45,584 nucleotides of DNA from a virus. A program made the position numbers and the translations under genes. The stretch covers positions 1 to 45,584 of IMG/VR virus record IMGVR_UViG_3300042888_001989. One strand, written 5' to 3'. Below, piece after piece: positions 5,238 through 35,718 of this stretch (its first letter is position 1; every line of letters starts with the position of its first letter). Under the pieces are notes generated by a model, which was not told where the DNA came from, did not search any database, and saw only the letters and a program-made list of their open reading frames with translations.

Positions 5238-5268
5238 CAAATATAATATATTTTTTTATTATTTCAAA
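5238..5268 (-). promoter_or_regulatory. Bacteroidota-type promoter for the gp47/coiled-coil/gp46 operon
   Basis: On the minus strand TTTG (5268-5265) is followed by 19 bases and TATATTTG (5245-5238), an exact fit to the TTG / TAnnTTTG pattern. The start of transcription would fall near 5232, at or within a few bases of the ATG at 5233, so the message would be nearly leaderless. Confidence 0.75.
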
Positions 5269-8637: not shown

Positions 8638-8668
8638 CAAATATAGTAATTTTTTCGTTATAAACAAA
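8638..8668 (-). promoter_or_regulatory. Bacteroidota-type promoter for the primase gene
   Basis: On the minus strand TTTG (8668-8665) is followed by 19 bases and TATATTTG (8645-8638). It has the same elements and spacing as the promoter before gp47. The predicted transcription start, near 8632, is only a few bases before the ATG at 8629. It lies just downstream of the terminator at 8678-8704. Confidence 0.75.
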
Positions 8669-9403: not shown

Positions 9404-10699
9404 TTATATAATTATCTGTACATCAAATACAACAAAATCGTTTTTCTTTTTTACTATTTGTCGATCTGTTTTACCGATAGCCAAAATATTTCCTGCCACA
9501 TCTGTAATTGCGATTTCACTTATTCTTACATCGTCATTAACTGTTAATGTAGGATTTTGTGAATTATAGAATTCTCCTCTAGCCGCAATACACACTATGT
9601 TTTGTACAAAATCATTTTGTATACTATCGATTGTGATATTATATGTATTGGCACTGTAATAGTAAAGTCCTAAACCATTATTTAAAGTATTGGTATTTGT
9701 ATTACCACTAAAATTTAATGCAATATTTTCTACAATATATGGATCAGTTATCGCAAAAATACCTTTATCTAAATACATTACACCCGCAATTTTATCTGAA
9801 TAAATTTGCGTATCGGCTACTGTCTGTACATTAATTAGTTGTTTTGCGTTTAAACTAAATGGTTTAAATGAATCATATCCTGTTGACCAACTTTTAGTTG
9901 AGTCATTGTTTGGTTTTTGTATACTATCGGACACTAAAAATGATACATTGATGTCGTTTGCGAATAATGCCTTAGGATATGAACTAATATCTCTAAACTG
10001 ACTATCTAAGGTTGTTTTAGGAATTGTTGTTTTAGGGAATGTACTATAAATTTCATAGGTAGTAATTCCAGTAGGTGTTCCACCACTCGTAAAACCAGTA
10101 TATATAGGTAATTTTATCTTAATACTTCTACCATCAATTATTTCACCATACTGACTATTATCAATTACACCTAATAATATGTTGCTTAATCCCAAACCAC
10201 TAAATGGTGTATCTGACCAACCTCCATTTTTAGAAGTGGTTCCAGTATAAATGTTATTATCAACATCTCTAATAGGTAAAGATAAACTTTTAAAGAGGTT
10301 GGTAAATTTATTTGATGTGTCACTTTTATCTAAAGTAACATAAGTTAAGTTAGTACCACTAACTGTAGTCTCACCCACAAAAAATGAGTTCATACTAATG
10401 GAAGATGAATTTGGCTCAACTTGTTTTTTAGTATTAGGTGAAACAGTCACATATAATTTACTATTGATGAATACATTTTCTGAAATGTTATCATTAGTAC
10501 TTAAATTATAACCAATATCTCCACTATTTGTGGGTATTAATCCAGATGTTAATTTTTCACTAGTATTGTAATTTGCGTCAGAATCACCTAAAGTGAAATG
10601 TGAAAAAATTTTATTATTATTTAATAATATTTTTTCCCTTCCAACCTTTGTTAATCTCGCCTTTACGGTTATTGTTGATGCACTATTTATAAATCCCAT
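9404..10699 (-). CDS. Tail protein, paralogue of the neighbouring 742-aa protein
   Basis: The protein has 431 residues. The N-terminus (residues 1-45) carries ARLTKVGREKILLNNNKIF followed by LGDSDANY. The C-terminus carries ISEIAITDVAGNILAIGK followed by a hydrophobic, beta-rich end. The upstream gene product has the same two signatures with changed residues, so the two are paralogues that share end domains and differ in the middle. The pattern of LTxxGRE near the start and a terminal E-I-x-I-x-D-x-x-G-N-L-x-x-x-G module is familiar from phage tail fibre and tail-collar type proteins. The middle is rich in Ser, Thr, Asn and Gly, as in beta-structured fibres. The exact role is not known. Confidence 0.75.
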   Translation of the reverse strand: MGFINSASTITVKARLTKVGREKILLNNNKIFSHFTLGDSDANYNTSEKLTSGLIPTNSGDIGYNLSTNDNISENVFINSKLYVTVSPNTKKQVEPNSSSISMNSFFVGETTVSGTNLTYVTLDKSDTSNKFTNLFKSLSLPIRDVDNNIYTGTTSKNGGWSDTPFSGLGLSNILLGVIDNSQYGEIIDGRSIKIKLPIYTGFTSGGTPTGITTYEIYSTFPKTTIPKTTLDSQFRDISSYPKALFANDINVSFLVSDSIQKPNNDSTKSWSTGYDSFKPFSLNAKQLINVQTVADTQIYSDKIAGVMYLDKGIFAITDPYIVENIALNFSGNTNTNTLNNGLGLYYYSANTYNITIDSIQNDFVQNIVCIAARGEFYNSQNPTLTVNDDVRISEIAITDVAGNILAIGKTDRQIVKKKNDFVVFDVQIII

Positions 10700-10711: not shown

Positions 10712-12940
10712 TTAAAAGTCTATTGTTAATTCTATGGATGCGGTTGTAGAGTCAGAAATTCTTATTGGTCTCGACAATTTCCCCACTAAAACTAAATTCT
10801 GATTATTATCTAATATACCTATCTCACTTACATACCTATCATCACCAAACTCAAAAGTATTATTACTAGTAGTGGCGATACTTGCACCATCAACAGTTAT
10901 ATTAAATAACGTTTTATATATTGTTGCCCCTATGTGAGTTCTTAGGTTACCATAGAATAACCTTTCATCACCTAGTGTCATCTTACCATAATAACTTGCA
11001 GTAGACATATCTAATTCATCACCCAAATTAAATGTAGTACCACCTGTGTATAAAGATCCTGTTAAAATAAATCCACTAATATTTGGATTTTGATTTTCAA
11101 ATAATGAAGGACTTATTGTTTCACCAGTGTTTACTGTAATATTTGTGGACGTAAAATCAATTACCTTCCAATTTGATGGTAAAGGTCTAGATTGTGTTGT
11201 TTTATCTACAACTTGTGCTAACACTTTAAATCTATCTGCAAAGAAACCGTATCCATCATAATTAACGTTTTCTCTTTTTCTCATATAAGGTAATTCATTA
11301 AGATTACCTATTCTAAACTGTACGTCTTTATCTGTATTAGTCTTGTTATCAATTACAGTGTATCTTTGACAAGGTAGTGTTGGTGTAGTGACTGTGGTAG
11401 TACCAGTTGATCCCGTACCCACATTCTCTAACCAATATGTTAAATATAGTGATTCACCCGCCTTTAAAACACCTGTACAGTTACCACTAACTGGTGTTAC
11501 TAATTCTGCAGCCAAATCAGGTAAACTATAATTTCTATTAGATTTATACGACATAGCCGCAATTAATTCTTCGTTATCAATAACTACTATCTTTAACTGA
11601 GGAAATACTTTACCAACTGACAATGGTAATGTAGGGGTAACCGACATACCACTATACTCTATTAAATCGTAATATTCTATATCATTATTACTAGATAATG
11701 TTTTTCTAATTGTGTCTGAAGTAAATCTCATACCTAATGTAGTTCCACTACCAGTACCAATATCATTTCTTCTATGCCACATCACAGGTATATCTAAATT
11801 AAGTAATTTACCTGTTTCTTCATCAATATAAAATTGTTCACCGTAGAAGTTTGATATACAACTATTGGTATAATGTAAAATACATATAGATTTATTAAAT
11901 GTGTCCATATAACTCTTACTATCCATCATTGAGTTGGTATCAGTAACAGTTATTTGTCTGTTGTACCCTAAATATTGTTTTGTACCCACAAATTGTTCTG
12001 AACCAAATAAATTGTTTTCATGATAATTTATAGGTGAGTCTTTATATAGTCCCGCAGGATTTTCTGTCCATACATTATTCATATTCCAAACAGGAATGTT
12101 GTCTACACATATATCACAACTATTTTGGAATGATAGTGTACCCGAATTCCAATACGCAGATAAACTACTAGCACCGTAATATGTGTCCATAGGATCATCA
12201 CCTCCTGGTAATGTATAATAAGTTATGATAGTTCCACCATACGCACTAAGTGTTGGTAATGCCCTATCCACTTTAATGGTTGATCCCGCAATGCTGGTTA
12301 TATTATAAACCGTATTTATTGTGGCAGATGTCATTGTTGATCCAGTAATATTACCCAATGTAGGGTTACTAAATCTAAAAATAATGTAATCGTTTACACT
12401 AGTTGCAGTTAATGGAGTGTTTAATGTTAAAACACCCTGTGTAAATGTAGTATAATCAGTAGCACCACTAAATTTATTTAAATTAATAGTACCTTGTTCT
12501 AAAATAAAATTAGAACTAGTTTGTGCGACTAAACCACTATCTACCGTAGAACCAGAGAAAAATCCTCTATCGTCCGCTTGATTTGTGACAATGCCTTTTA
12601 TTAATTGTATATTACTTTGTTGATTAAGTGGAAAAATGAATTGATTTGATTGATTAAGTAAAAAAGAAGAAAAGAAAGGGTTATCATCTTTAGGTCGTAA
12701 AACTTTAGAATATATATTTTTAACTATATTCCCATCTGCCTCTGGGAACCAAAATTCTCCAGTTGACGCACCAATATTTGGTACAAATTCACTCCAACCT
12801 TTCACATAATTGTAGTCGACTTCTGAATCACCAATCATATAGTTGGCGAAAGTTAATTGTCCTTTTGCTAATTGTTCTCTACCAATATCAGTTAATTTTA
12901 CTCTTACTAAGGTAGTACTTTGTTTATTTATATAACTCAT
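10712..12940 (-). CDS. Tail protein, larger paralogue with LTxxGRE head and EIGILD tail
   Basis: The protein has 742 residues. Residues 1-45 contain VRVKLTDIGREQLAKGQLTF and IGDSEVDYNY. The last 60 contain DRYVSEIGILDNNQNLVLVG followed by the LSRPIRISD segment. Both ends match the 431-aa protein encoded 12 bases downstream. The central 600 residues are Thr/Ser/Gly/Asn-rich and probably beta-structured, with no recognised enzyme motif. It most likely forms part of a tail fibre, collar or baseplate appendage. The leader is A-rich (AAAAGAGAAAAATG), with TATTTATT 19 bases upstream of the start. It lies in the late tail block between the propeller protein and its smaller paralogue. Confidence 0.75.
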   Translation of the reverse strand: MSYINKQSTTLVRVKLTDIGREQLAKGQLTFANYMIGDSEVDYNYVKGWSEFVPNIGASTGEFWFPEADGNIVKNIYSKVLRPKDDNPFFSSFLLNQSNQFIFPLNQQSNIQLIKGIVTNQADDRGFFSGSTVDSGLVAQTSSNFILEQGTINLNKFSGATDYTTFTQGVLTLNTPLTATSVNDYIIFRFSNPTLGNITGSTMTSATINTVYNITSIAGSTIKVDRALPTLSAYGGTIITYYTLPGGDDPMDTYYGASSLSAYWNSGTLSFQNSCDICVDNIPVWNMNNVWTENPAGLYKDSPINYHENNLFGSEQFVGTKQYLGYNRQITVTDTNSMMDSKSYMDTFNKSICILHYTNSCISNFYGEQFYIDEETGKLLNLDIPVMWHRRNDIGTGSGTTLGMRFTSDTIRKTLSSNNDIEYYDLIEYSGMSVTPTLPLSVGKVFPQLKIVVIDNEELIAAMSYKSNRNYSLPDLAAELVTPVSGNCTGVLKAGESLYLTYWLENVGTGSTGTTTVTTPTLPCQRYTVIDNKTNTDKDVQFRIGNLNELPYMRKRENVNYDGYGFFADRFKVLAQVVDKTTQSRPLPSNWKVIDFTSTNITVNTGETISPSLFENQNPNISGFILTGSLYTGGTTFNLGDELDMSTASYYGKMTLGDERLFYGNLRTHIGATIYKTLFNITVDGASIATTSNNTFEFGDDRYVSEIGILDNNQNLVLVGKLSRPIRISDSTTASIELTIDF

Positions 12941-12986: not shown

Positions 12987-15893
12987 TTAATATGCGTTCC
13001 CACTATTATATTGTATCTCTATAGAACTTACATCACTATAAGAATAACTATATATAACTTCACCTATAATAGGTGTATAAAATTTTTCATTTTTTATTCT
13101 ATATATAAATTTATCACCAGCGGACGCATTTGTCAATGTTACGAATATTTTATAAGTTTTTTCACCTACAACATAATCAGTTACACTACTATATTGTATA
13201 TTCTGAAAATTAGTATCTGAAGGATCAGCAAACTCTATAGTAAATTTACCATTAACACTTATAGGTGCAGAATTTATTGACCAACTTATTGCAGGTGTAT
13301 TTGTTGGAACTAATCCATTTATATTTGAGTTGGGTACATAGAAGGCTTCTATAATATCCCCAACATTTAATGTATCTTCTAAGATAATTCTTCTATCGTT
13401 AGATGTAGACGAATAGTACTCTATACCTTTTGAAAGTATTGATCCATTTATCGATAAAACTATATCACTTGCAGGGGAAGACACTAAATAAAACTCATAT
13501 TTATTTTCAGTCGTATTATAAAAAACTCTATCATTTGTAGTTTGGGTACCTGTGGATCCACTAACTATCGGTGAGGTGATTGAATATACGTCCCCATATA
13601 AATTATTAGATGTACCATTATCCACATACGCGTATGTCAATATTTGTTTATCTAAAGGTGTGAACAATAACTGTACATAAGGTGTTGAAGCCGTTGTGTT
13701 TGCACTATACTCTATACCTTTGGCTAAGACTGAACCATTATAACTAACTATTGGGTCAGATAAACCGTTAACTACATATTGTGTAGTACCACTATTAGTG
13801 AATACTGTTTGTACTACTAATGTATCTATACTAGCAGGTGCAGGTGCAACTGAATTATCAAACAACGGTTTTTCTGCCTCAAATAGACTAATAAAATACC
13901 AATCAGTTTCAGGATAATATAAACCATAAAGAATACCTCTTTTATATGTATCTATATTATTCTTCCTAACTTCTTGTTGTTTCGCTAAAAAAGTATTTAC
14001 ATTGTACTGCCAATAAGATTTAATTAAAAATTCTCCTTCACCTAAATTAACTGAAGGTAAATATATTGTATTACCAGTAGTACCTGTTAGATTTTCATAA
14101 CCCACACTAAAATTGTATAATGCAGAATTAGTAAACCCACTATTTGTTTGATCATATTTATAAACCTCACCATAATAAGATAAATTTTTAGATTCAACAA
14201 CATCGTTAACATTATTTACTAAAAGGTTAAATAAATACCCTAATCTACCACTATTAATTAGATAAACAAATCTATCAGGTGATAATGTTTTATTTGTAAT
14301 TACATTAGGTAATCCCCATGTGGATGTTGTTCCAGTCACACCCGAAGTTGTTAAACTAAATCCATTTTCTTCAAAATTACATAGTACTCCTAAACCGTTT
14401 GGTCTGTGTATCATATGTAAATAATCTTTACCGTAATCTGCAACATATATTTTTTCATCAGGACCCATTTGTAACGCACCTAAACTAGCACCACTTAATT
14501 CCGCAACCTTTATAATATTCTCTTCAATTTTTGTAGATGAACTATAAGATAAATCAAACTGATATATTTCTTCTCCTGCACCTTCCGAAATATAAATTTT
14601 AGAAGAGTCAGAAGAAAATTCTAAACCGTATGGTCCAACATTATATGAAAAACCTGTAATTGTTATTAAATTACTTAAAGTACCAGCAGAAGAATCAAAA
14701 TCGAAAATGTCTACAATATCTTCATCATATAATAACGATACTAACTTAGTACCATCAGGTGAAGTTTTCATATATCCTCTCATAGTATTATGAGTACTAC
14801 CAATACTTGTTACAACTGGACCACTCAACCCACTTTGTGTTACTAAGTAGGAATAAAAATTTGTATTTCCACTTGTATGTGTTATAACCCAATAATCCTC
14901 ACCATTACTATGTAAACACGATGTAACTTTTTCTGTGGTAGGTGTAGTGAGTAATTTTATATTCTTACTTTCTATTTCTCCGTTACCACTTTGTAAATCC
15001 ATATTTACAATAGAGTATTGAAACCCATTTGTTGATCCACTGTAATCTGTTACAAATATAAAATACTTATTTGTGTTCGGTCTAGGTATTATAATTGATG
15101 ATTGTGTAGATGTTCCTGAACTAGAAAGTCCTGTACCATTAACCATAACAGTATTACCACTCGTATAAACTGTTTGCCCATTCGTATAGAATAGTAAACT
15201 ACCTTCTTTATTAGATATCGAAGATACCCCTTCTTGAGATACTACCGATCCACTAATGGATGTTGGTGTCCCTCCAGATTGTATAGGGTTAAAAGTGATT
15301 CCTGCGTTGGTACCAAAATACCAATTATAATTTAATCTATCATATGTGTAACCCGTATATGTTACTGGACCACAAAGTGTGTCTCCAGTAGATGTTGGGA
15401 TTTTTCTAGTTCCACTTATCGTAACTTGTGGAAAATCAAAACTATCGAAATCTGTTCTCTCTATATGTGAGTACTTATAACTATTACTTAAAGGTTCCCA
15501 ACCAAAATTTTCAGTTTCACCCCTACTAGATAATAAACTATATTTTTTACCTTTATCTATATACAATAAGTCATTATTCGGTTCTACCGATATAACCATA
15601 TTACTATCACTACTGTTACCCGATAAAGAAAATAATAAGTATTTTTCAGTTAAAAGGTTTGAGAAAATTGTATTACCGTAACTTTGTGGGTTACTTAACA
15701 CATATAAATTTTTTGCATTAGATAAATCTAATGGTAGGAATAATGCAGTTTCCGTTTCAATAAAAGTAGTTAAAGATGAAGCATTAAAATGCACATCAGT
15801 AGATACTCTTACATCCACAGGTGATTCTATTTCACTTATCACATTTGCCGAAACAGAAATTGGATTTTCTATTTTACCTCTTATACTAGCCAT
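12987..15893 (-). CDS. Virion-associated protein with a Bacteroidota-type beta-propeller
   Basis: The protein has 968 residues. From about residue 186 to 528 it has the hallmarks of a propeller common in Bacteroidota surface and type IX-secreted proteins. In order these are NWYFGTNAGITFNP; EGVSSISNKEGSLLFYTNGQ; MVNGTGL with a following STQSSIIIPRP; a YSIVNMDLQSGNGEI segment; DYWVITH; GYMKTSPDGTKL; YGLEFSSDSSKIYIS with IYQFDLS; LQMGPDEKIYVADYG; and a closing GLPNVI. The remaining 440 C-terminal residues contain repeated beta modules in which similar segments recur (FNSGTTQYVVNG, FYNTTENKYEFYLV, SVNGKFTIEF), each followed by a phrase about an initial state such as LSKGIEY or LAKGIEY. There is no signal peptide or secretion domain, so it probably acts as a tail appendage or receptor-binding protein. 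The TATTTATA motif lies 5 bases upstream of its ATG. Confidence 0.8.
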   Translation of the reverse strand: MASIRGKIENPISVSANVISEIESPVDVRVSTDVHFNASSLTTFIETETALFLPLDLSNAKNLYVLSNPQSYGNTIFSNLLTEKYLLFSLSGNSSDSNMVISVEPNNDLLYIDKGKKYSLLSSRGETENFGWEPLSNSYKYSHIERTDFDSFDFPQVTISGTRKIPTSTGDTLCGPVTYTGYTYDRLNYNWYFGTNAGITFNPIQSGGTPTSISGSVVSQEGVSSISNKEGSLLFYTNGQTVYTSGNTVMVNGTGLSSSGTSTQSSIIIPRPNTNKYFIFVTDYSGSTNGFQYSIVNMDLQSGNGEIESKNIKLLTTPTTEKVTSCLHSNGEDYWVITHTSGNTNFYSYLVTQSGLSGPVVTSIGSTHNTMRGYMKTSPDGTKLVSLLYDEDIVDIFDFDSSAGTLSNLITITGFSYNVGPYGLEFSSDSSKIYISEGAGEEIYQFDLSYSSSTKIEENIIKVAELSGASLGALQMGPDEKIYVADYGKDYLHMIHRPNGLGVLCNFEENGFSLTTSGVTGTTSTWGLPNVITNKTLSPDRFVYLINSGRLGYLFNLLVNNVNDVVESKNLSYYGEVYKYDQTNSGFTNSALYNFSVGYENLTGTTGNTIYLPSVNLGEGEFLIKSYWQYNVNTFLAKQQEVRKNNIDTYKRGILYGLYYPETDWYFISLFEAEKPLFDNSVAPAPASIDTLVVQTVFTNSGTTQYVVNGLSDPIVSYNGSVLAKGIEYSANTTASTPYVQLLFTPLDKQILTYAYVDNGTSNNLYGDVYSITSPIVSGSTGTQTTNDRVFYNTTENKYEFYLVSSPASDIVLSINGSILSKGIEYYSSTSNDRRIILEDTLNVGDIIEAFYVPNSNINGLVPTNTPAISWSINSAPISVNGKFTIEFADPSDTNFQNIQYSSVTDYVVGEKTYKIFVTLTNASAGDKFIYRIKNEKFYTPIIGEVIYSYSYSDVSSIEIQYNSGNAY

Positions 15894-15916: not shown

Positions 15917-18900
15917 TTATTCTGTTGTACAATTATGTATTAATTCTTGATTATAAAAATCACCACCATCTTCCCAATCAGGATCCCCAATTATAGTCAC
16001 ATTACCTTCATATTCATTTGTATCATATATCTGTGTTATGAATACTGTATTATAATCACTTATTAATGTATTAGATGCCCTAACACATTTATATATTTTA
16101 TCTCTTAAAATTGCAATATAATTTCTTTGTCTTTCATATAGTGTAGTACCATATATAAAGTTATTTAAATTATTTTCTGCCTGTAGTAAAGTTTCAGTAA
16201 GTCCACTACAACTCATAAAGTTACTATAGTAATTTTGTTGTTGTAACAAATATTTAGTTTCTTCAGCACTTAAGTCAGTATATAAAGTACTTAATTGTGT
16301 TTCTAAATTATTTAGATTATTAGTTAATAATGTAATTTGTGCACTAACCGAATCAATCTGTGATTGTAAATTAGGGGTATCAAAATCCTGTAAATTAAGT
16401 GAACACAATATTTTATTTTGTGCAGCAATATTATCTTTTACTAACTCAATTTGTATATTTTTGATTCTTATTTGATTTTTAATATTGTTTATAGTATCAT
16501 TAGTAGGGAACAATGGTATTTGTTCTACTAATGAATAAACATCTTCAGAACCAATACTAAAATCGGTGTACGCACTTAATGGACAACTATTTGTTGTCTC
16601 AATAAGATTTAAACTATATCTTTTATATTGGAATTTATTTTGATCAAAAATAGTATTTCTATAAATTTTACCTGAATTGTCACAACCTTCCCAAATTGTA
16701 GTTGCAGGTACCACTTGTTCTAATAAATTTAACCAATAATCACCAATTTTATCCATAAATTCAAACATAGTGTTATATGTGAATTTACCAGATAATTCTT
16801 TACCACAATTATTAGCATTTAAATAAAGTTCGTAGAATAATCTTAGAAGTGGGTAATCACTTATAGTTTGTCTACTCTTTACATCTATTAAATTTGATTG
16901 AACTAATTGATCAAATACGTCCTTAACATTAATTTCTGACGGTTGTATATCTAAATAATCCAATGGATTAATACAGATATTATATGAACTACCACTATAA
17001 TACCCATTAGAACATTCATTTAAAGTTCCACAATATTCACAGTCTCCTTCACAAACACTACATCCGTCAATTGGTTTCCATAGACATTTTGATAAACTAC
17101 TATCCCACTGATAGTTTTTACCTAAACCTAAACCTTCAGTACCCTCACCATTAAGTAAATTATTTATTGTTTTACAACATTCTTCGTTTACAAAGGTTGT
17201 TTGGTTAAATGTTTGTGCAGTTACCCCACTTAAAACTTGTACTAATGTGCCACCAGTATATGGTGTACTACCACTATAGATATATGATTCGTAAACTGAT
17301 ATTGTACCATCATAATTTTCAGTTATTAAACCAAATAAATTATTTGTTTGTTGGTTATTATTAATAACCAATGTATCAGTCCCACAATTATTGTTCTGAA
17401 TTTCAAAATTAGAAAGACCATAACCTAAATTTAATAAATCATAATATGTCGCATTTAATGAATTATTATAATCAGAAGTTAAGGTATAATATTGATTTTT
17501 TAATTCAGTAACTTGATTTTCTAAGATATCAGTAAACGTTGAACAACTAAATGTTAACCCTGTTGTAGATGCAGATAAGTCTAATGTATAATCTAATAAT
17601 GTGGTAGAACTGTATACCATTCCACTATACACTACCGTACTGGCAGATGTACAACTTGTTGGACAACCTCCATCACAGTCTATATTTTTCCAATAATTAA
17701 ATACGTCACACTCTATTGCCTTAGATGGGTCAATACTAAATGTAGTATTTTTAACATTTATTATTAAATCTGAGTGATTAACATCGTAGTTAGTATATCT
17801 ATATTCTAAATCTGTCCACAATCTTTCTTCAGGTGTACCCATTTTAACTACTTGATAGTTATTGGTGGATGCGGTATTACAAGGACCGTCAGGATATACT
17901 GTTTCAGTAATAATTCCTTGATCAGTATAAACCCAAGATTTTTTATTATCAATAACACAACTTAATTGTGGTATTAAACAATTATTTAATGAAACTAATC
18001 TTTCTGTTTTACAATCAGATACATTAATAATAATGTTATCTATAAGTAAACATACTGAACAGTTATAATTTTCTATTTCTACTGAGAAGAAAAATTCTTT
18101 GTTAGGGTATAATCTTCTTAAGTCATCACATACACATTCTGGTATAGTGAAATTAAATGTACCCCAATTAGGTTCAAATAAATTAGAATTATAAGGTGTA
18201 TTAGAATTAGATAGTTCTGTAAATACTGAATCTTGAATTAATGCAATATCTTGTTCACTACCATCTAAAATAATACCACTATACCCAACTGAAGGATCAA
18301 ATTCCCAAAAAGGGTTTACCGATTGAGTGTAGGGTAAGTATGTAAGATTTGAGTCTACTTGATTTGTATAAACTAAATTATTATTATCAACAAATAATTT
18401 AAAATTAAGTTTTAAATTATCAATTAATGTTAAATAACTTTCAGTATTATTAATATAATTATTGTACTGTGTTAATATTTCAGAATACCAATCATCATAT
18501 AAAGATTCAGTAATATCAGTAATTTCTAAAAGGTTTGTTTCAAGTAATTCTAAAGTATTATTTAAATAATTCAATAATTCTTGAGTACAACAAGGATTAG
18601 GTATTGTGGGATCACAAGGACTAGGTACTTCAGCCAAATCTTGTGTGATAACATCTACCACTTGTTCTGTAGTAAAAGTAGTTTTATTTACATTAGTTTC
18701 ATTTATAGTAATGTCATATATTAACTCATCTTTTTGTTGTATTAAACTACTAACTTGTGTTTGATTTTTTTGTAATTCAATTGTTAATGTTATTTTTTCA
18801 CTATCCGTTAAATCAATATAACCTTCAACATTTGTAATTTCTTTAGGTGTAACACCCAGTATTTTTGCAGTTTCGTTTATAGTATTTTTATAGTCATTTT

Positions 18901-21900
18901 GATCCATTTGGGAAGTTTGTGTAACCTCATTCCCAATAATCAAATAATTTTTAGATAATGTATTTATGTTATCTTGAACTATACCGATTTCTTTAATCAA
19001 CTGATTAATTAACTTCTGATTGTTTTGGAATTTAGCGTTTACTAATTCTTGTTCTAATGTATTGTTTTTATTACAATTACTTAATAATTCTAAATATATT
19101 TTCTTTTGTGCCGATAATCTTTCATTTTCTGTTTTAACACAGTTATTGAATAAATCCCTATCTCTTAAAGTAATTTCTTTTTTATCACCATAAATTTGTG
19201 TAGTACAGTATCCCTCAACATTGAATGAGTCTATAGCGTAAATTTCATTTTCATAAACTATACAATCTAAAGGTAATGTAACATCTGACAACGCTTTATT
19301 AATTACGTCAATTTGACTATTTTTTTGGTTTATCTGTACATCAATTGCAGTTAAATTAGTTTTTAATTTTGTATTTTCAGTAACTAAAAGATCAACTTGT
19401 GTATTCTTTTCCGAAATTACGGTATTTTTTTGTTTTTCTGAATTAATAATTTCATTTGTTAAAACCGCCTTAGTCGGTAAGTTTTCAGGAGTTTCTTCCA
19501 CTACACAGTTTGACTCATATTGCGAAATTACGCCATTAATACCTTCAATAGTATTCTTATAGTCCATATATAAATTAGTCCAAAGCCCATACTCTAATGG
19601 TATTTCTAACATACAAATATTTGTAGTAGTAATGTATTTATTAAAATCTATAAAACAACCAGGTTCTACTATATTAAGGAAATAACAGTCCCCAATACTC
19701 CTTTCTAATTCTTTTTTGATAGAATTTAAGTTAGTACCATAAGTAATCAATTCACTATAATCAAAATCAAATGTATTTAATAACTGACTATTAGGTGTTG
19801 TTATAATTTCTCCATATGTGTTAGTAATATTTCTAACCCAATTAAAGTTTACGGAATACGATTCTTTCAATTCGGTGATGTTACCACCAACGGCATTACA
19901 ACATTGTAAAATAGGTTCATTTTGTTGTGTGTTTTGCCATATAACATACTCTTCAGTAACATCTTCATTATCGTTAAAATTATTTTCTAATAATGAACTA
20001 TCTTCTTCACTATTTGTAAATGAAACAAAGTTCATACAATACAAACTATTAAGTGTGTTGTCGTGTATAATCGCAGGATAACAATCTATTCTAGTGACGC
20101 ACTCTTTCAAATTCTCTGTCTGATATTTTATCATATAGTCAAAAGAGAAATCAACTTTACAAGAACAATCTGTTACTTCAGGTAATTTAAAACCTGACCA
20201 AGCCTCACTCGCAAAAACTATCGATACATTATCTAGACTACCACAACCAATGTGGTTTGGATCTACTACCGCATTTGTAATGGAATTAGGGTTTTCAGTA
20301 TATAAATTACCATTATCTACATAAGGTATCAAATTATTAGTAATTGTATCAATATAAAATGAACCATAGGTATATTGAGTGAATAATGCTCCCACTGATT
20401 GGTATAATTGTGCCAATTGACCCGTTGCGTTCCAATCTAATACAAAGTCGTTATAATATTCTGTTGGTGTAAAACTAACTCTACCGTATTCATCTATTGT
20501 ATGTACCACCCAATTTGTTGGATCCATAAAATTTGGATCTTCAAATAATGAATTCAATATTGTTTCATAACAATCTATACAATCTTGACCAACACCTTTA
20601 ACTATAATTGCTTCTTCTAAACAATCATCGTAAATTGTTGTTGAATAATATTGCGGTACTTCACCTATTGGGTTTTGTAATTCCACGTACCCAATTGTTG
20701 TATCATATAATGAAGGTGGTATTACAAAAGTTGAACTTAGATTAGGTGGTACTATTTCATGATAGATTTGAATTTGTTCTTGTATTGCGTTTTGTTCAAT
20801 TTGGAAATTAATTTTTTTAAATGTTGCACCTACTAAAGGTGTCTCTACAGTTTCTTTACCACTACCTACCATACCTATTGGATTAGTATTTGGTACTGTG
20901 GTACCTGCAAGACCAATAACTGGTGTTGAGGGTAAAGGAGGTACTGAAGGGTTGGTAAATGGAACAGGTTCACCTTTATCGGGTGTAGTACTAACTACGT
21001 TCCCATTAGTTCCTGATGTACCATCTAATTGTGTCCCTAAATCGTTAATATATTCATCTATATCATTTGTTGTCGATGATGGTGTAGTTAAAGAATTACC
21101 TGAAGTACAAACAATATAACTTACATTGTTTTCTTCTATTAATTGGTAATTATACCCATACCACGCACAACATTCAGGACTACTAATTATTGTAGTTAAT
21201 TCACAATTTACTTCTTGAAAATATGTATAAAAATCTTTTGGTAATATATTTGTAGTAATCTTATTTAAGTAGGATTGAACTGATCCGCCCTGACCTCCCG
21301 TTATAGTGTTATTAGATAAGTTAGTAACCCCAATGAAATAAACTTGTCCCGCCTTTGTTAACTGATAACATTTATTATTAAATGAATAAACGTTACTCGG
21401 CATTGTATTATTATTTAATTCAAATACTATAATACCGTTTGCTAATGTGTCTACTGGATTACCTACACATGGTGCATTTTTAGAACAGTACTCAACCACT
21501 CTACATTCTTCATTAGTATATGTAACATATTGTCCTCCTTCAGAAGTACAACAAGACGCAAATTCATTAAATGATACTTTAGTACCACCAGAATTTACAA
21601 AATATATGTATGGATCACAAGTTACTGCACTTAATGATGAACAATCAATTTTAAAGTTATCTTGTGGTAATTCATTAACACAAATTTGTAGTGTTTGGTT
21701 GATATCACAATTTTCACTAGAAACTTCTAAAAGTGCATTGTTTTGTGCCACTGTATAGTTGTTTTGAATTACATACCATTCTGGCGAATACGCTAAATAA
21801 CTATTTTGTAGTATCTGTTGTTGGTAATCTAAGTATGCCTCTTCCGCAGCCTCAAATTGTTGTTGGAATGTGGTTTTACCGTCATTCTGTAAAGGAGTTT

Positions 21901-23971
21901 CAATAATACTATAATTGACATCAACACAGTCTTCAATAAACTGATATGTGTTAATTGCAGGATTAAAAGTTAATTGTGTAGTAAAAAATTCAGTTGTCGC
22001 TGAAGGTACGCTATTAAATAACCCATGATTATAATTTAAAAAATAATTATCCCCTAAAGTTTTTGCAGTAACGGTTACTGTTGGTTCCGAATTAAAGTTT
22101 GGTATAAAACATCTACTAAAGTATTGTAAATACTCACTACCACCATCATAAGCCCCAACGTGTGGGTTATTACCATCCAAATTAGTTATTACATTAGAAC
22201 CATAAGTCTCTCTATACCAACCACCCGCTTTTTGGAAATACATTTCAGTATAATCATTCTCTACTAATTGTCCAGTGGTTTGATCGATATAATTTGTAAT
22301 AACCAAATCACCGTTTATTGGTGGTAATGGAAAACCATTATCATCATATGGTATATTATTAAAATTTACTTCACCTGTGTAAATATATAATAATTTTTTT
22401 ATCTCTTCAACATCTAAAGGTTTATCTACTATTACAATATATTCATTAAAATTAACTAATGATTCAGGTGCACCGATAAATCTAAATAAAAATTCTACCG
22501 CCTTTCTAGTTCCCTTACTCTTCCATAACCAAGCAATATTTAATATCAATCTTCTATATAGTTCGATATCAATTTCACTTTGTGTCATATTAGTAGAAGT
22601 ACCACTAAATTCACCACCACCATTACTAGGTAAATATAATTTACTAAATGTGTTGTCCGTTATAAATGTTACAGGATCTAACCCTAACATATATGCCAAA
22701 TCTTTGACTAACGCATCAGGTACATTATTTTTCTTGTCGTATGTAACAACGTGAGCCAATTTAATTCCATTAATATATTTTTTAATATAATCAAATTCAA
22801 CCCCATATATCCTCAATAATTTAGTTGCCTTCTCACCATTTAAAACGTAGTCATCTCCATCCGCCCTAGGTACGGTATCAAAACTATTTATCGCTTCAGT
22901 AGTATACTTTCTTATAATGATATCAGTCCTAGAATTATCTAAGTCTTCACCTAACTGATTCATTTTATCTAAGAAAGCAATATAGTAACTATCGAAAAAG
23001 TTTAGATTATATCCATCTTCTAATATTGGGAAATCAAATAATTTCTTAGATGTTAGTACCACACCATTGTCAGTGAATTTTGTACTATAAAATTGAGATG
23101 TATACTTTGGGTATATATTTCTATCTAATAAATTTAATTGTAATTCATTTAAACTTGAAAAGAATTTTTCTATTTCAGATTCATTTGGTTTAATAAAATA
23201 GGGTATTGAACTATCTATAGGTGTACTTAAAAAAGATATTTGTGGTAGAATTAAACCTGTTAATTCTGGAAAAGGATTACCCTCAACAACTAATTCTATT
23301 TCAGAGTTAGTTTTTTGTGTTGCAGGTGTTATACTTTTTATATTTTTTCTTATACCATTATGTTCAATTACATATGAAGTATTTTTTAATGTGAAATTTC
23401 TTAACGGATTTTCCGTTTGTTCTGTAGGTGTGAATTGTGCATCTACAGTATATTTTATATTGTATGGATTAACAAAGAAATTACTATTTACCTTAAATGT
23501 AGATTCGTCCGCAGATAAATCATACACATAATCTGTAATATTATTACCCGTAACACTACCAACCTTATTGTCTACATATATTGCCGCAGGATAATTATTT
23601 TGTATCTCAATTAAGGATGCCCTAATTAATTCTTTTGATGATCCATACCAAACATAACTTATTGGATTTGTTAGATCTAAATTAAGTTTTGTTTTTAAAT
23701 TTTTTTGTATTTCTAATTGTGGGGTATTTTCAGTTACTATATCATCTAATGTAAAAAATTTAGACTTAGTACCCTGCGTAAATAATACGTTTGGTTTCGG
23801 ATCTAAATTTACTGATATAGAAAAATTACCATTAGTGAAAAGCGTAGTCCCCCCTTCACTAGTGAGTTGGAAACCTACTAAGTCGGGACTGAAATTCCTA
23901 TATTCAATGTTATCATTGAAAAATATTCTTTTAGCGTACCCTGCAATTTTTATCCTTTTATTGTTCGCCAT
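15917..23971 (-). CDS. Giant 2684-aa tail/baseplate protein with repeated Cys-Cys modules
   Basis: At 2684 residues (about 300 kDa) this is the longest gene in the window. Residues about 427-520 (DLAYMLGLDPVTF, then LWKSKGTRKAVEFLF and RFIGAPE) resemble the helical segment of phage tail proteins in which a KGT motif precedes an amphipathic helix. This suggests baseplate or fibre-network placement. Downstream, Cys-Cys modules recur near residues 807, 934, 1357, 1795 and 2264; four have glycine or tyrosine-rich residues after the CC and three end in another Cys. Coiled coils are evident near 1540-1620, 1680-1780 and 2510-2610. A Cys cluster (CSVCEGDCEYCGTLNEC) lies near 2300. There is no signal peptide. 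The gene follows the 300-aa protein by 7 bases in the tail block. T4 has no baseplate protein of this size; the analogue could be a fusion of wedge and fibre functions (inference). Confidence 0.8.
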   Translation of the reverse strand: MANNKRIKIAGYAKRIFFNDNIEYRNFSPDLVGFQLTSEGGTTLFTNGNFSISVNLDPKPNVLFTQGTKSKFFTLDDIVTENTPQLEIQKNLKTKLNLDLTNPISYVWYGSSKELIRASLIEIQNNYPAAIYVDNKVGSVTGNNITDYVYDLSADESTFKVNSNFFVNPYNIKYTVDAQFTPTEQTENPLRNFTLKNTSYVIEHNGIRKNIKSITPATQKTNSEIELVVEGNPFPELTGLILPQISFLSTPIDSSIPYFIKPNESEIEKFFSSLNELQLNLLDRNIYPKYTSQFYSTKFTDNGVVLTSKKLFDFPILEDGYNLNFFDSYYIAFLDKMNQLGEDLDNSRTDIIIRKYTTEAINSFDTVPRADGDDYVLNGEKATKLLRIYGVEFDYIKKYINGIKLAHVVTYDKKNNVPDALVKDLAYMLGLDPVTFITDNTFSKLYLPSNGGGEFSGTSTNMTQSEIDIELYRRLILNIAWLWKSKGTRKAVEFLFRFIGAPESLVNFNEYIVIVDKPLDVEEIKKLLYIYTGEVNFNNIPYDDNGFPLPPINGDLVITNYIDQTTGQLVENDYTEMYFQKAGGWYRETYGSNVITNLDGNNPHVGAYDGGSEYLQYFSRCFIPNFNSEPTVTVTAKTLGDNYFLNYNHGLFNSVPSATTEFFTTQLTFNPAINTYQFIEDCVDVNYSIIETPLQNDGKTTFQQQFEAAEEAYLDYQQQILQNSYLAYSPEWYVIQNNYTVAQNNALLEVSSENCDINQTLQICVNELPQDNFKIDCSSLSAVTCDPYIYFVNSGGTKVSFNEFASCCTSEGGQYVTYTNEECRVVEYCSKNAPCVGNPVDTLANGIIVFELNNNTMPSNVYSFNNKCYQLTKAGQVYFIGVTNLSNNTITGGQGGSVQSYLNKITTNILPKDFYTYFQEVNCELTTIISSPECCAWYGYNYQLIEENNVSYIVCTSGNSLTTPSSTTNDIDEYINDLGTQLDGTSGTNGNVVSTTPDKGEPVPFTNPSVPPLPSTPVIGLAGTTVPNTNPIGMVGSGKETVETPLVGATFKKINFQIEQNAIQEQIQIYHEIVPPNLSSTFVIPPSLYDTTIGYVELQNPIGEVPQYYSTTIYDDCLEEAIIVKGVGQDCIDCYETILNSLFEDPNFMDPTNWVVHTIDEYGRVSFTPTEYYNDFVLDWNATGQLAQLYQSVGALFTQYTYGSFYIDTITNNLIPYVDNGNLYTENPNSITNAVVDPNHIGCGSLDNVSIVFASEAWSGFKLPEVTDCSCKVDFSFDYMIKYQTENLKECVTRIDCYPAIIHDNTLNSLYCMNFVSFTNSEEDSSLLENNFNDNEDVTEEYVIWQNTQQNEPILQCCNAVGGNITELKESYSVNFNWVRNITNTYGEIITTPNSQLLNTFDFDYSELITYGTNLNSIKKELERSIGDCYFLNIVEPGCFIDFNKYITTTNICMLEIPLEYGLWTNLYMDYKNTIEGINGVISQYESNCVVEETPENLPTKAVLTNEIINSEKQKNTVISEKNTQVDLLVTENTKLKTNLTAIDVQINQKNSQIDVINKALSDVTLPLDCIVYENEIYAIDSFNVEGYCTTQIYGDKKEITLRDRDLFNNCVKTENERLSAQKKIYLELLSNCNKNNTLEQELVNAKFQNNQKLINQLIKEIGIVQDNINTLSKNYLIIGNEVTQTSQMDQNDYKNTINETAKILGVTPKEITNVEGYIDLTDSEKITLTIELQKNQTQVSSLIQQKDELIYDITINETNVNKTTFTTEQVVDVITQDLAEVPSPCDPTIPNPCCTQELLNYLNNTLELLETNLLEITDITESLYDDWYSEILTQYNNYINNTESYLTLIDNLKLNFKLFVDNNNLVYTNQVDSNLTYLPYTQSVNPFWEFDPSVGYSGIILDGSEQDIALIQDSVFTELSNSNTPYNSNLFEPNWGTFNFTIPECVCDDLRRLYPNKEFFFSVEIENYNCSVCLLIDNIIINVSDCKTERLVSLNNCLIPQLSCVIDNKKSWVYTDQGIITETVYPDGPCNTASTNNYQVVKMGTPEERLWTDLEYRYTNYDVNHSDLIINVKNTTFSIDPSKAIECDVFNYWKNIDCDGGCPTSCTSASTVVYSGMVYSSTTLLDYTLDLSASTTGLTFSCSTFTDILENQVTELKNQYYTLTSDYNNSLNATYYDLLNLGYGLSNFEIQNNNCGTDTLVINNNQQTNNLFGLITENYDGTISVYESYIYSGSTPYTGGTLVQVLSGVTAQTFNQTTFVNEECCKTINNLLNGEGTEGLGLGKNYQWDSSLSKCLWKPIDGCSVCEGDCEYCGTLNECSNGYYSGSSYNICINPLDYLDIQPSEINVKDVFDQLVQSNLIDVKSRQTISDYPLLRLFYELYLNANNCGKELSGKFTYNTMFEFMDKIGDYWLNLLEQVVPATTIWEGCDNSGKIYRNTIFDQNKFQYKRYSLNLIETTNSCPLSAYTDFSIGSEDVYSLVEQIPLFPTNDTINNIKNQIRIKNIQIELVKDNIAAQNKILCSLNLQDFDTPNLQSQIDSVSAQITLLTNNLNNLETQLSTLYTDLSAEETKYLLQQQNYYSNFMSCSGLTETLLQAENNLNNFIYGTTLYERQRNYIAILRDKIYKCVRASNTLISDYNTVFITQIYDTNEYEGNVTIIGDPDWEDGGDFYNQELIHNCTTE

Positions 23972-33502: not shown

Positions 33503-35332
33503 TTATGACGTAGAAATTGTCACCTTTATGTCTTTATTTGGGTATTTAATCTCAAACATACCATTAGGTTGTCCGAATAAAGTATATTTACCCAATAAAT
33601 CAATTTGTCTTGTAGTCTCATCAATATAAGGTTGTGCAATCTCATTTAATGAATATTTACCATTTTCATTAACTTTATTAAAAACCCTTAAATCTGTTAC
33701 GTTAAGTACGCCACCTACATTATTAATGTTTTCTATAAGTTGAGATACATAGATGTTATCACCCATTTCCCATTTATTGATGTCAAAATAATCTGTAACA
33801 CTACTGATAACTCCTGCAATAATATCTCCTCTAGGAATTGACTTCTCTGCGAATATATCTATTTCAAAACCTAAGTTAATAACTCTACCGTTTTTAACTG
33901 TAACGTAATCATTAATCATCCTATAGTCCGCCAAATATTCCGCAATATTTTGTTTCAGTGTTGATGTTGCCTCAGTGGTTAATTTAGAATTAGAATCTAA
34001 CGCCAATATTGAAACGTTAATTTTATTTCTTTCTTCCCATACACCCGTTCTAAATGGTACACCAAATTTACCAGGCATTAATGGTATTCTAGACTGATAA
34101 TCTTTAATAGTTACACATCTATCTTGTGCGGAGAAATTATATCTAACTAAATTTCTAACCTCATCAATAGAAGGTTCTTCTTTACCACCTAATGCTGGTA
34201 TTGGGTTATTAACAGATATACTATTTCTAATTATTCTATTAAGATCTGAAGAGTCACCATTTATAACTACGTTTATCGTACCCAAAGTGTTTATTATATT
34301 AACACCTATATTACTATCTTCTCCACCACCTACTCTATATCTTACATAAATGGTGTTATTGGTTGGTGGTATTTGACCCAAAGATAAATTATTAACTGTT
34401 TTACCAATTCTCTCAATTTGTCCCTTACATCCAACAAAACTATTTAATTCTGAAGTATCTGCGTCACCCGCACCAAATATAATTTTACAGAAACCATTGT
34501 CTGTAAATTCTTTAATAAATCTACGAGGTGCGTTTAACCATTTACCTACAGATATTCCCTCTCTATCTGATATTGTATTATCATCTATAACGTAAACCTC
34601 CGATTGTGCCAATGCAGGTACCTCATACCAACTTAAATTAAAGTCATTAAATTCTTCTTCTGTTGGTTGGTTTACTAAATTGGTTCCTTCTTTAGTAAGG
34701 ATATTTTCTATAGAAAGTACGTTGTCTTCAGGTAAAACAATTTCAAAAAATGGTCTATAATCACTTCTCGTTAATGTTCTTTTAAAAGTTTTAGTAATAC
34801 CATTTAACATTATTTCTCTTTTAGTAAGTGTATAGTTTTGAATTATACCACTTCCATCTATGTTTGGTACTATTAGTCTGTTTGGTATCCCACCAGTCGT
34901 AAATGGTGATGCAAAATCAGAATCTTCCATTAATTCAAAGACTTTACCCGCACCAGTGGCTTGTGAACCCTTTAAAATTTTTGGTGCGTAACTTATATCA
35001 AATGTATCACCTTTAACAGGTATATTGGTTACTGTCCAGTCTACTATCGTAATACTCGGTCTTTTACCTGGTACATTTAATCCGAAAGTTCTTGCCAACT
35101 CTAAAAGTGAAGATCTTTCCTGTGCGTAACTAATTTGTGTTTCATTAAACATTCTATCAGTATGGAATGATAACATATCACCAACCGCAGCATTTAATTC
35201 CAATAACATCATACCTACAGACGCATCATTAAAATCTGAGAATATTTCTGGATAATATTTTTGTATGAACTCTATTAATTGTTGTCTAACATCTGAGAAG
35301 TTCCTAGCGTTGTAATCTATTTTTTTAGCCAT
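33503..35332 (-). CDS. 6: gp6-like baseplate wedge protein
   Basis: This 609-aa protein would form the ring that joins baseplate wedges in contractile tails (T4 gp6 is 660 aa; the family is related to baseplate protein J). The N-terminus DYNARNFSDVRQQLIEFIQK, then NDASVGMMLLELNAAVGDML and FHTDRMFNETQISYAQERSS, is typical of gp6. A helix-rich region with the family phrase LARTFGLNVPGKRPS follows. Later segments (CKIIFGAGDADTSEL, KFGVPFRTGVWEERN) match the pattern of baseplate J-type proteins. It starts 2 bases after the gp25 gene, as expected for the T4 order 25-6. Confidence is high because gene order and sequence agree. Confidence 0.92.
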   Translation of the reverse strand: MAKKIDYNARNFSDVRQQLIEFIQKYYPEIFSDFNDASVGMMLLELNAAVGDMLSFHTDRMFNETQISYAQERSSLLELARTFGLNVPGKRPSITIVDWTVTNIPVKGDTFDISYAPKILKGSQATGAGKVFELMEDSDFASPFTTGGIPNRLIVPNIDGSGIIQNYTLTKREIMLNGITKTFKRTLTRSDYRPFFEIVLPEDNVLSIENILTKEGTNLVNQPTEEEFNDFNLSWYEVPALAQSEVYVIDDNTISDREGISVGKWLNAPRRFIKEFTDNGFCKIIFGAGDADTSELNSFVGCKGQIERIGKTVNNLSLGQIPPTNNTIYVRYRVGGGEDSNIGVNIINTLGTINVVINGDSSDLNRIIRNSISVNNPIPALGGKEEPSIDEVRNLVRYNFSAQDRCVTIKDYQSRIPLMPGKFGVPFRTGVWEERNKINVSILALDSNSKLTTEATSTLKQNIAEYLADYRMINDYVTVKNGRVINLGFEIDIFAEKSIPRGDIIAGVISSVTDYFDINKWEMGDNIYVSQLIENINNVGGVLNVTDLRVFNKVNENGKYSLNEIAQPYIDETTRQIDLLGKYTLFGQPNGMFEIKYPNKDIKVTISTS

Positions 35333-35334
35333 AT

Positions 35335-35718
35335 TTAAAATGTTAATGTAATTGTATCTGTACTTGTGAAAGTCCCTTCAGTAACTGTATAGGTTAATTC
35401 CACAATAATTAATTCTTCGATGGCATCATTTCTAAATGATATATCATTAATCAATAAATTAGGTATAAACCTAATAATAGTTTGATTTAAATTGTCCTTA
35501 ATTTGTTCATGAGTTATTTCATCATTGGGTTCAAAGATGAACTTTTTAAGGTCACTACCAAATTCTGGTAGATATAACCTTTCTCCCTTATTAGTTAACA
35601 ATAAATGTAATAAGTCTGCCCTAATAGCGTCCTTATCAGTTTTGTTCATTTTAAAATAGAAACCATTGTCACTATCTCTAAAAGGAAAATCAATATTTAT
35701 ATAATTAGTCTTTGCCAT
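35335..35718 (-). CDS. 25: gp25-like baseplate wedge protein (GPW/gp25 family)
   Basis: The protein has 127 residues; T4 gp25 has 132. It has the family core LLLTNKGERLYLPEFGSDLK, then KFIFEPNDEITHEQIKDNL and LLINDISFRNDAIEELIIVE. The segment FEPND sits where the conserved E-P-R motif of gp25-like sheath-initiator proteins is expected, with Asn in place of Arg. In contractile tails this protein links the wedge to the first sheath ring and helps trigger contraction. It starts the gp25-gp6 pair, 2 bases ahead of gp6. The TATTTATA motif lies 6 bases upstream of the ATG, after an AGAGA stretch that might act as a weak ribosome-binding site. Confidence 0.9.
   Translation of the reverse strand: MAKTNYINIDFPFRDSDNGFYFKMNKTDKDAIRADLLHLLLTNKGERLYLPEFGSDLKKFIFEPNDEITHEQIKDNLNQTIIRFIPNLLINDISFRNDAIEELIIVELTYTVTEGTFTSTDTITLTF

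Follow-up and report, generated by a model that had tools for sequence, protein, structure and literature searches.

The 45,584-base virus record IMGVR_UViG_3300042888_001989 (hereafter called the window) carries, within a block of tail genes, a 968-residue open reading frame (ORF) whose residues 186-530 belong to a beta-propeller family of secreted Bacteroidota proteins. The evidence as a whole is best explained by a tail display protein with a captured propeller that binds a host-side ligand, a reading to which we assign a probability of roughly 0.58 and for which we infer the virion location, the binding, the ligand, the host and the direction of transfer. According to this proposal, the gene product would be displayed on the tail of a large phage that has a contractile tail and probably a Bacteroidota host. 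A conserved C-terminal scaffold would fix the protein to the tail, and the binding module, in this phage a seven-bladed propeller of the Bacteroidota-secreted family, would be exchangeable and held in a slot upstream of the scaffold. The most likely origin of this propeller is a single acquisition from a Bacteroidota gene, in which signal peptide and sorting domain were left behind, and it probably serves as a host-binding module that can be swapped. It would bind a ligand on or around host cells in adsorption, perhaps the same ligand as the bacterial propellers. The original prediction, made from the sequence of the window, was right as to domain family, tail location and the lack of a signal peptide (by hydropathy) and of a sorting domain, but its suggestion that no phage protein with this domain is described needs correction.

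Identity and predicted fold of the propeller

A scan of one genome per species with residues 186-530 yielded 181 stretches, the best 80 of which were retained. Among these best 80, 79 come from records titled Bacteroidota, Kapaibacterium or Ignavibacteriae, with 35-41% identity and E values of 1e-57 to 3e-74, and the remaining one is a phage contig within a single-cell genome titled Prochlorococcus. At the sequence level, the resemblance of this segment to Bacteroidota proteins is far above chance. The homology starts with the WYFG block and extends over approximately 345 residues up to GLPN, with about 40% identity over the whole propeller. In a control with 146 cyanobacterial genomes, the one strong match (E 1.4e-140) is the same Prochlorococcus-titled phage contig, and 11 further genomes gave partial matches alone, at E 5.8e-5 or weaker. 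The family is present in 50 of 247 sampled genomes of the phylum Bacteroidota, with up to 16 matches within one genome. On the viral side, the 968-residue ORF is intact and stop-free in 10 loci at 66-100% identity, the alignment covering residues 1-968 in nine of them and starting at residue 8 in L010 (viral loci bear numbers preceded by L), and a wider scan with a propeller profile yielded 49 loci, 29 of which (L160-L187 and L203) are of the window type.

The AlphaFold model of the propeller alone (50 sequences) has a predicted local distance difference test score (pLDDT) of 90.6. Its top solved structure after realignment is 1l0q, an archaeal surface-layer YVTN propeller (Z 24.1, root-mean-square deviation 3.4, 276 residues), followed by lactonase-like propellers, one of them within 1 Z unit, and 6-phosphogluconolactonases are among its nearest folds. 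The predicted fold is a seven-bladed beta-propeller, the number of blades being that of the matched structures and not derived from coordinates. Residues ~186-528 had originally been predicted to form a Bacteroidota surface propeller, and the scan matches, the sequence blocks quoted at the time, which align with their bacterial counterparts, and the predicted fold all bear this out. Predicted propellers were found in other viral proteins too, and therefore the fold alone is no novelty.

A polar residue occupies the corresponding position of successive repeats (six in all: E221, Q264, E321, K376, E425 and Q475); the six are conserved in 16 of 16 window-type rows and, among 53 bacterial rows, in 45 to 53. 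They might line the channel of the propeller, and their conservation is consistent with a retained binding site. One conserved polar residue per repeat, together with the 6-phosphogluconolactonases among the nearest folds, could also suit an enzyme that degrades or modifies a polymer of the host surface. We consider such an activity improbable, as the matches to Lactonase and SGL are all sub-threshold and the best structural match is the surface-layer propeller, though it is closely followed by the lactonase-like one. Membership among the 6-phosphogluconolactonase, Lactonase or SGL proteins was rejected, the matches being below the cut-offs both in Pfam (Lactonase, 14 bits for a cut-off of 21.7; SGL, in 6 of 8 relatives, best E 0.0012) and in NCBIfam (15 bits for a cut-off of 500). 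The propeller stays below the cut-off of every Pfam family, and the 968-residue protein has neither a Pfam match over cut-offs nor a PHROGs match.

The phage protein shares its domain with the secreted WYFG-type family but, judging from its sequence, it is not itself a secreted member. Signal peptides were judged by hydropathy alone, not with software made for the purpose. Within the N-terminal 40 residues of the 968-residue protein, 12-residue means reach at most 1.06, versus a median of 2.68 before the propeller of bacterial homologues (n=78), 76 of which have a hydrophobic, signal peptide-like segment (L012 and L060 are omitted from this count). The propeller starts at most 35 residues from the first Met in 68 of 79 bacterial homologues, mostly with the signal peptide-like segment before it, whereas in the window protein some 185 residues precede it. 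The bacterial propellers are homologous to the entire window propeller at 35-43% identity and have the polar residues in common with it. No type IX sorting domain was found in the window protein with Pfam or NCBIfam, and such domains, of type A or B, are present over cut-off in 8 of 10 bacterial homologues hand-picked among the longer of the 79. The originally predicted absences of a signal peptide and of a sorting domain thus hold. Type IX sorting is not defining for all bacterial members, because the short Hymenobacter forms, which make up the majority of the 79, terminate soon after the propeller. As the family is secreted in Bacteroidota and some of its members are type IX-sorted, the tail might show a host-like surface domain so as to be taken for a protein of the host surface or to engage the partners of such a protein. 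However, an identity of ~40% is distant for close copying, and we regard such mimicry as highly unlikely.

A conserved scaffold with a variable module slot

A scan with residues 531-968 alone yielded 71 loci, i.e., 28 of the window type and 43 others, some of the latter being near-copies of each other. None of the 43 other scaffold ORFs has a propeller match. Most of them (27 of 43, two of which are cut) are 456-491 residues long and have no insert. Ten are 625-640 residues long, with ~150 inserted residues that by eye are of more than one kind; two have 747 residues, with a PA14-like module in the one tested (L281); and three, of 898-914 residues, harbour both modules. The last one, L278:3821-5253, is split over two frames, which might reflect a frameshift or an assembly error. 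Comparison of the modules, which took in 11 of the 16 longer or split loci, showed that in L113:7482-11135 the propeller is interrupted in its last part by a PA14-like module, and that the scaffold gene of L281, L253, L251 and L245, which has no propeller, contains this module too. Its best sequence match in the PDB is an adhesion protein (E 0.028). The stretch of residues 135-169 that precedes the propeller aligned with the N-terminus of propeller-less forms in hhalign (probability 78.6, E 1.7e-5, 35 columns), which is suggestive of a common anchor. A scan with residues 1-185 yielded 20 loci, all on contigs that also bear the propeller. Neither the N-terminal nor the C-terminal part of the protein has a sequence relative in the PDB at E up to 1.

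The exchangeable module thus appears to be set between anchor and scaffold, and the modules differ among relatives. By sequence comparison, the gene is a slot for variable modules, which suits a protein of host recognition, and the combination of a tail-region location with an exchangeable module on a conserved scaffold is that of a candidate receptor-binding protein. Adhesion is plausible because the propeller fills the slot of exchangeable modules.

Several observations weigh against this reading. The propeller is conserved as much as the scaffold: it has 83-87% identity in close relatives versus 85-88% for its flanks, and 70-74% versus 53-71% in distant ones, i.e., an equal or higher conservation, whereas the receptor-binding tips of phages are often their fastest-varying parts. 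The PA14 assignment lies below the Pfam cut-off, with matches for two of five modules and a best E of 1.4e-4. A full-length model based on eight close relatives had a pLDDT of 31.3 and was not used. Finally, the 968-residue gene had no match among 50,697 phage records, a set from which near-identical records may be missing.

Such conservation would also be expected if the propeller were a rigid spacer or an element of tail assembly making no host contact, and a propeller domain has been described as a structural part of the tail muzzle of crAss-like phages (PMC10136315; this paper and those cited below were consulted in excerpts). Yet there is no fixed structural need for the propeller, because 27 of 43 slots are empty and 15 of 43 hold other modules; a purely structural role is thus unlikely. 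The 968-residue protein might also be an intracellular or lysis-released protein encoded in the tail block. Of the alternatives considered here we give this the least credence, given that the gene keeps its place, flanked by two large conserved proteins: both window neighbours have homologues in 35 of the 43 propeller-less loci, with several others cut by contig ends, and the placement is the same in the window-type relatives examined (L109, L113, L203 and L012).

A tail module that binds the host would have parallels in other phages. The receptor-binding protein of Staphylococcus phage phi11 is linked to the baseplate and contains a beta-propeller, as do P2 of PRD1 and gp131C of phiKZ, the latter being seven-bladed and located at the baseplate periphery (PMC4901313). 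Phi11 and the window gene have in common a beta-propeller in a tail or baseplate protein that binds receptors in phi11 and may do so in the window phage. The phi11 propeller has five blades, whereas that of the window protein belongs to a Bacteroidota secreted family and occupies an exchangeable slot. BACON domains of Bacteroides surface proteins are found in tail-region proteins of crAss-like phages, for which host binding was proposed (PMC6949934); the window protein would similarly result from recruitment of a Bacteroidota-type surface domain into a tail-region protein. They differ in that BACON domains are Ig-like tandem repeats in crAss-like tails and the window protein has a single propeller, in what is very likely a contractile-tailed phage. 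In the literature that we surveyed by titles and beginnings of abstracts, excluding subscription papers and preprints, we found no description of this domain family in a phage protein, be it of the tail or not, or of a series of exchanged modules on one scaffold. As far as these sources go, propellers and BACON domains in tails were already known, and what is new is the presence of this propeller family in a tail protein and the module series.

History of the propeller and its other phage carriers

For a first tree, 146 propeller sequences were reduced by identity to 76. In this unrooted tree, a single branch with a support of 100/100 and a long stem splits 17 phage from 59 bacterial propellers. 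The window-type propellers form one clade, which is compatible with a single capture. In a quick scaffold tree, also unrooted, which used 25 of the 43 propeller-less loci, one branch separates the 17 propeller rows from the 25 propeller-less rows, and one gain (or one loss) therefore suffices. Contig L004, an identical copy, was left out of both propeller trees, the second of which is described below. Because the family is widespread and often multicopy in Bacteroidota, whereas the sister scaffolds lack it, a transfer from host to phage is favoured, with the proviso that the trees are unrooted, and capture by the phage would be the simplest reading. The original claim that a host surface domain was captured agrees with the single phage clade, set apart from the bacterial sequences in the domain phylogeny, and with the 43 propeller-less scaffold loci; as to the direction of transfer, the unrooted trees do not bear it out.

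Seventeen other loci (L188-L202 and the truncated L204 and L205) contain the domain in a separate, secreted protein, which has a signal peptide-like start in 7 of 7 tested, followed by the propeller, and totals ~370-490 residues in the full ones. L188 harbours a PKD domain according to Pfam, and by eye most others have a like C-terminal motif. In L188, L189 and L194, the products of the two genes after the propeller gene likewise have N-termini resembling those of secreted proteins, and one of the two has a C-terminal type IX type B sorting domain (CHU_C), over the Pfam cut-off, in L188 and L194. These gene groups are located at L188:7923-10482 and L194:7923-10484; others are in L189 and L192. 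CHU_C is present in 6 of 7 secreted-form records tested, ~1-2 kb from the propeller gene in four of those, and in none of 11 window-type records. Going by sequence, the secreted propellers and sorting-domain proteins look like phage-encoded surface cargo for the type IX system of the host. Cryophage genes for proteins with type A sorting domains have been described (PMC7468147). Terminase matches in 3 of 7 and a sheath match in 1 of 7 secreted-form records aside, the phage nature of these records relies on their IMG/VR classing, and the secreted-form loci compared gave no match to any further gene of the window.

The domain is also present in L206-L208, giant proteins of ~3000-3600 residues with two diverged propeller copies each (e.g., L206:3567-14384 and L207:7845-16781). 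With these three loci and the 17 secreted-form loci, the original suggestion that no phage protein with this domain is described needs correction, and propellers as a fold had already been described in phage receptor-binding proteins (PMC4901313). Synechococcus phage S-SKS1 encodes, downstream of gp6, a large protein with a propeller-like stretch (41% identity over 68 residues). The corresponding ORF, L209:4377-9089, is unannotated and carries a YHYH domain; the similarity of this generic propeller-like stretch is at the level of blades and was not found by the family profile, and the protein was rejected as a family member.

A second tree was built by removing from the first set six bacterial rows with long branches and two phage rows that were near-duplicates, and by adding L203 and 14 secreted-form rows, with L191, L204 and L205 left out. 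The window type and the secreted type may stem from two separate captures or from one: the tree separates the two types, but an approximately unbiased test does not reject a single clade (p 0.215). It is tentatively conceivable, though rather unlikely, that Bacteroidota phages took over the host propeller, perhaps repeatedly, as a tail adsorption module acting on the same ligand in one lineage, while other large phages would have infected cells secrete a propeller together with a type IX-sorted protein and thereby perhaps cover or modify the cell surface to the disadvantage of rival phages.

Tail block, host and implications

The location of the gene within a tail block, as originally predicted, is supported by two baseplate wedge genes identified with PHROGs and by conserved neighbours (Table 1). 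The wedge proteins are taken to be gp25- and gp6-like, the latter name being also that of the S-SKS1 annotation. The gene order resembles those of Flavobacterium phage immuto and Microcystis phage Mel-JY01, with clear matches of the wedge genes; the larger wedge protein is 27% identical to that of immuto and 28% to that of Mel-JY01. Some of the immuto genes behind the wedge genes are annotated as tail fiber and tail spike. The neighbours of the 968-residue gene resemble proteins of these named phages over short stretches, at E values of 1e-4 to 0.01 in a search with one locus. Thus, the 2684-residue protein has a short, weak match to a large protein behind the wedge genes (E 5e-4 in immuto and 0.001 in Mel-JY01), and a C-terminal stretch of the 742-residue protein is weakly like Mel-JY01 and immuto tail-region proteins (E 1e-4 to 0.008). 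Sheath matches at E 0.001 or better are found in 6 of 11 window-type records, three of them over cut-off, and terminase matches in 2 of 11; the window-type lineage is therefore very likely contractile-tailed.

Table 1. Features of the window discussed in the text
Feature	Position	Strand	Remarks
968-residue tail-block protein with propeller	12987..15893	minus	Start codon ends at 15893, stop codon 12987-12989; ORF open
N-terminal region, residues 1-134	15492..15893	minus	Scan with residues 1-185
Pre-propeller stretch, residues 135-169, possible anchor	15387..15491	minus	hhalign
Predicted seven-bladed propeller, Bacteroidota secreted-protein type, residues 186-530	14304..15338	minus	Homology and predicted fold
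Conserved C-terminal scaffold, residues 531-968	12990..14303	minus	Common to propeller-less forms; 71 loci
Baseplate wedge protein (gp25-like)	35335..35718	minus	PHROG 261, E 3e-20
Baseplate wedge protein (gp6-like)	33503..35332	minus	PHROG 219, E 1.1e-18
2684-residue upstream neighbour	15917..23971	minus	Homologue adjoins scaffold gene in 38/43 propeller-less loci
742-residue downstream neighbour	10712..12940	minus	Homologue adjoins scaffold gene in 40/43 propeller-less loci
431-residue neighbour	9404..10699	minus	Order kept in relatives

The available indications, which are indirect and mixed, favour a Bacteroidota host. Shine-Dalgarno sites are not in excess in window-type genes (3 of 134, versus 3.6 by shuffling), nor in immuto (1 of 35 versus 1.6) or the Hymenobacter loci (4 of 50 versus 4.7), unlike in Mel-JY01 (10 of 36 versus 4.0). 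The promoter pattern of the Bacteroides primary sigma factor, TTTG-N17-21-TAnnTTTG (PMC7366714), is present between window-type genes in 15 instances in sense and one in antisense orientation, and in propeller-less relatives in 18 and one, respectively. The window itself contains eight such sites for 2.7 expected, a number reached by 2 of 100 shuffles, and four of the eight are antisense within genes. In the propeller-less relatives (L245-L288), 31 of 56 matches to the -7 box end 4-5 nucleotides upstream of the start codon, and in the window the boxes at 5238-5268 and 8638-8668, both on the minus strand, lie 4 and 8 nucleotides before the start. Promoter boxes so near start codons suggest leaderless transcripts.

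Other observations speak against this host assignment. Because the contigs are related, neither the 134 genes nor the 15 promoter sites are independent observations, the sites being shared by descent. The promoter pattern is absent from immuto and without excess in secreted-form phages (1 sense to 0 antisense), and its -33 part was not found in Flavobacterium johnsoniae, according to the same excerpts (PMC7366714). Window-type contig L012 (QCKH01000004.1) is part of the single-cell genome titled Prochlorococcus, where it may result from infection, carry-over or contamination; IMG/VR record L108 is evidently the same contig. Among phage records, the closest ribonucleotide reductase (68% identity) is from a phage listed for Microcystis elabens. 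The cyanobacterial host that the Prochlorococcus-titled genome and Mel-JY01 would suggest is made less likely by the lack of a Shine-Dalgarno excess and by that of Photo_RC (psbA/psbD) genes, found in none of 11 window-type records, with two matches in a cyanophage control, although absences are weak in records that may be fragments. The ribonucleotide reductase gene of the window (38717-40576), whose product is 68% identical to that of Mel-JY01 and 61-63% identical to those of Vibrio and Oceanospirillum phage genes annotated as recombinase, was probably exchanged, because the other window genes compared with Mel-JY01 have merely 25-33% identity.

If the polar residues are indeed kept in a tail module, the phage would provide a handle on the ligand of a common Bacteroidota propeller family. 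The presence on one scaffold of a propeller, a PA14-like module, another module or none constitutes a natural series for studying how host recognition changes.

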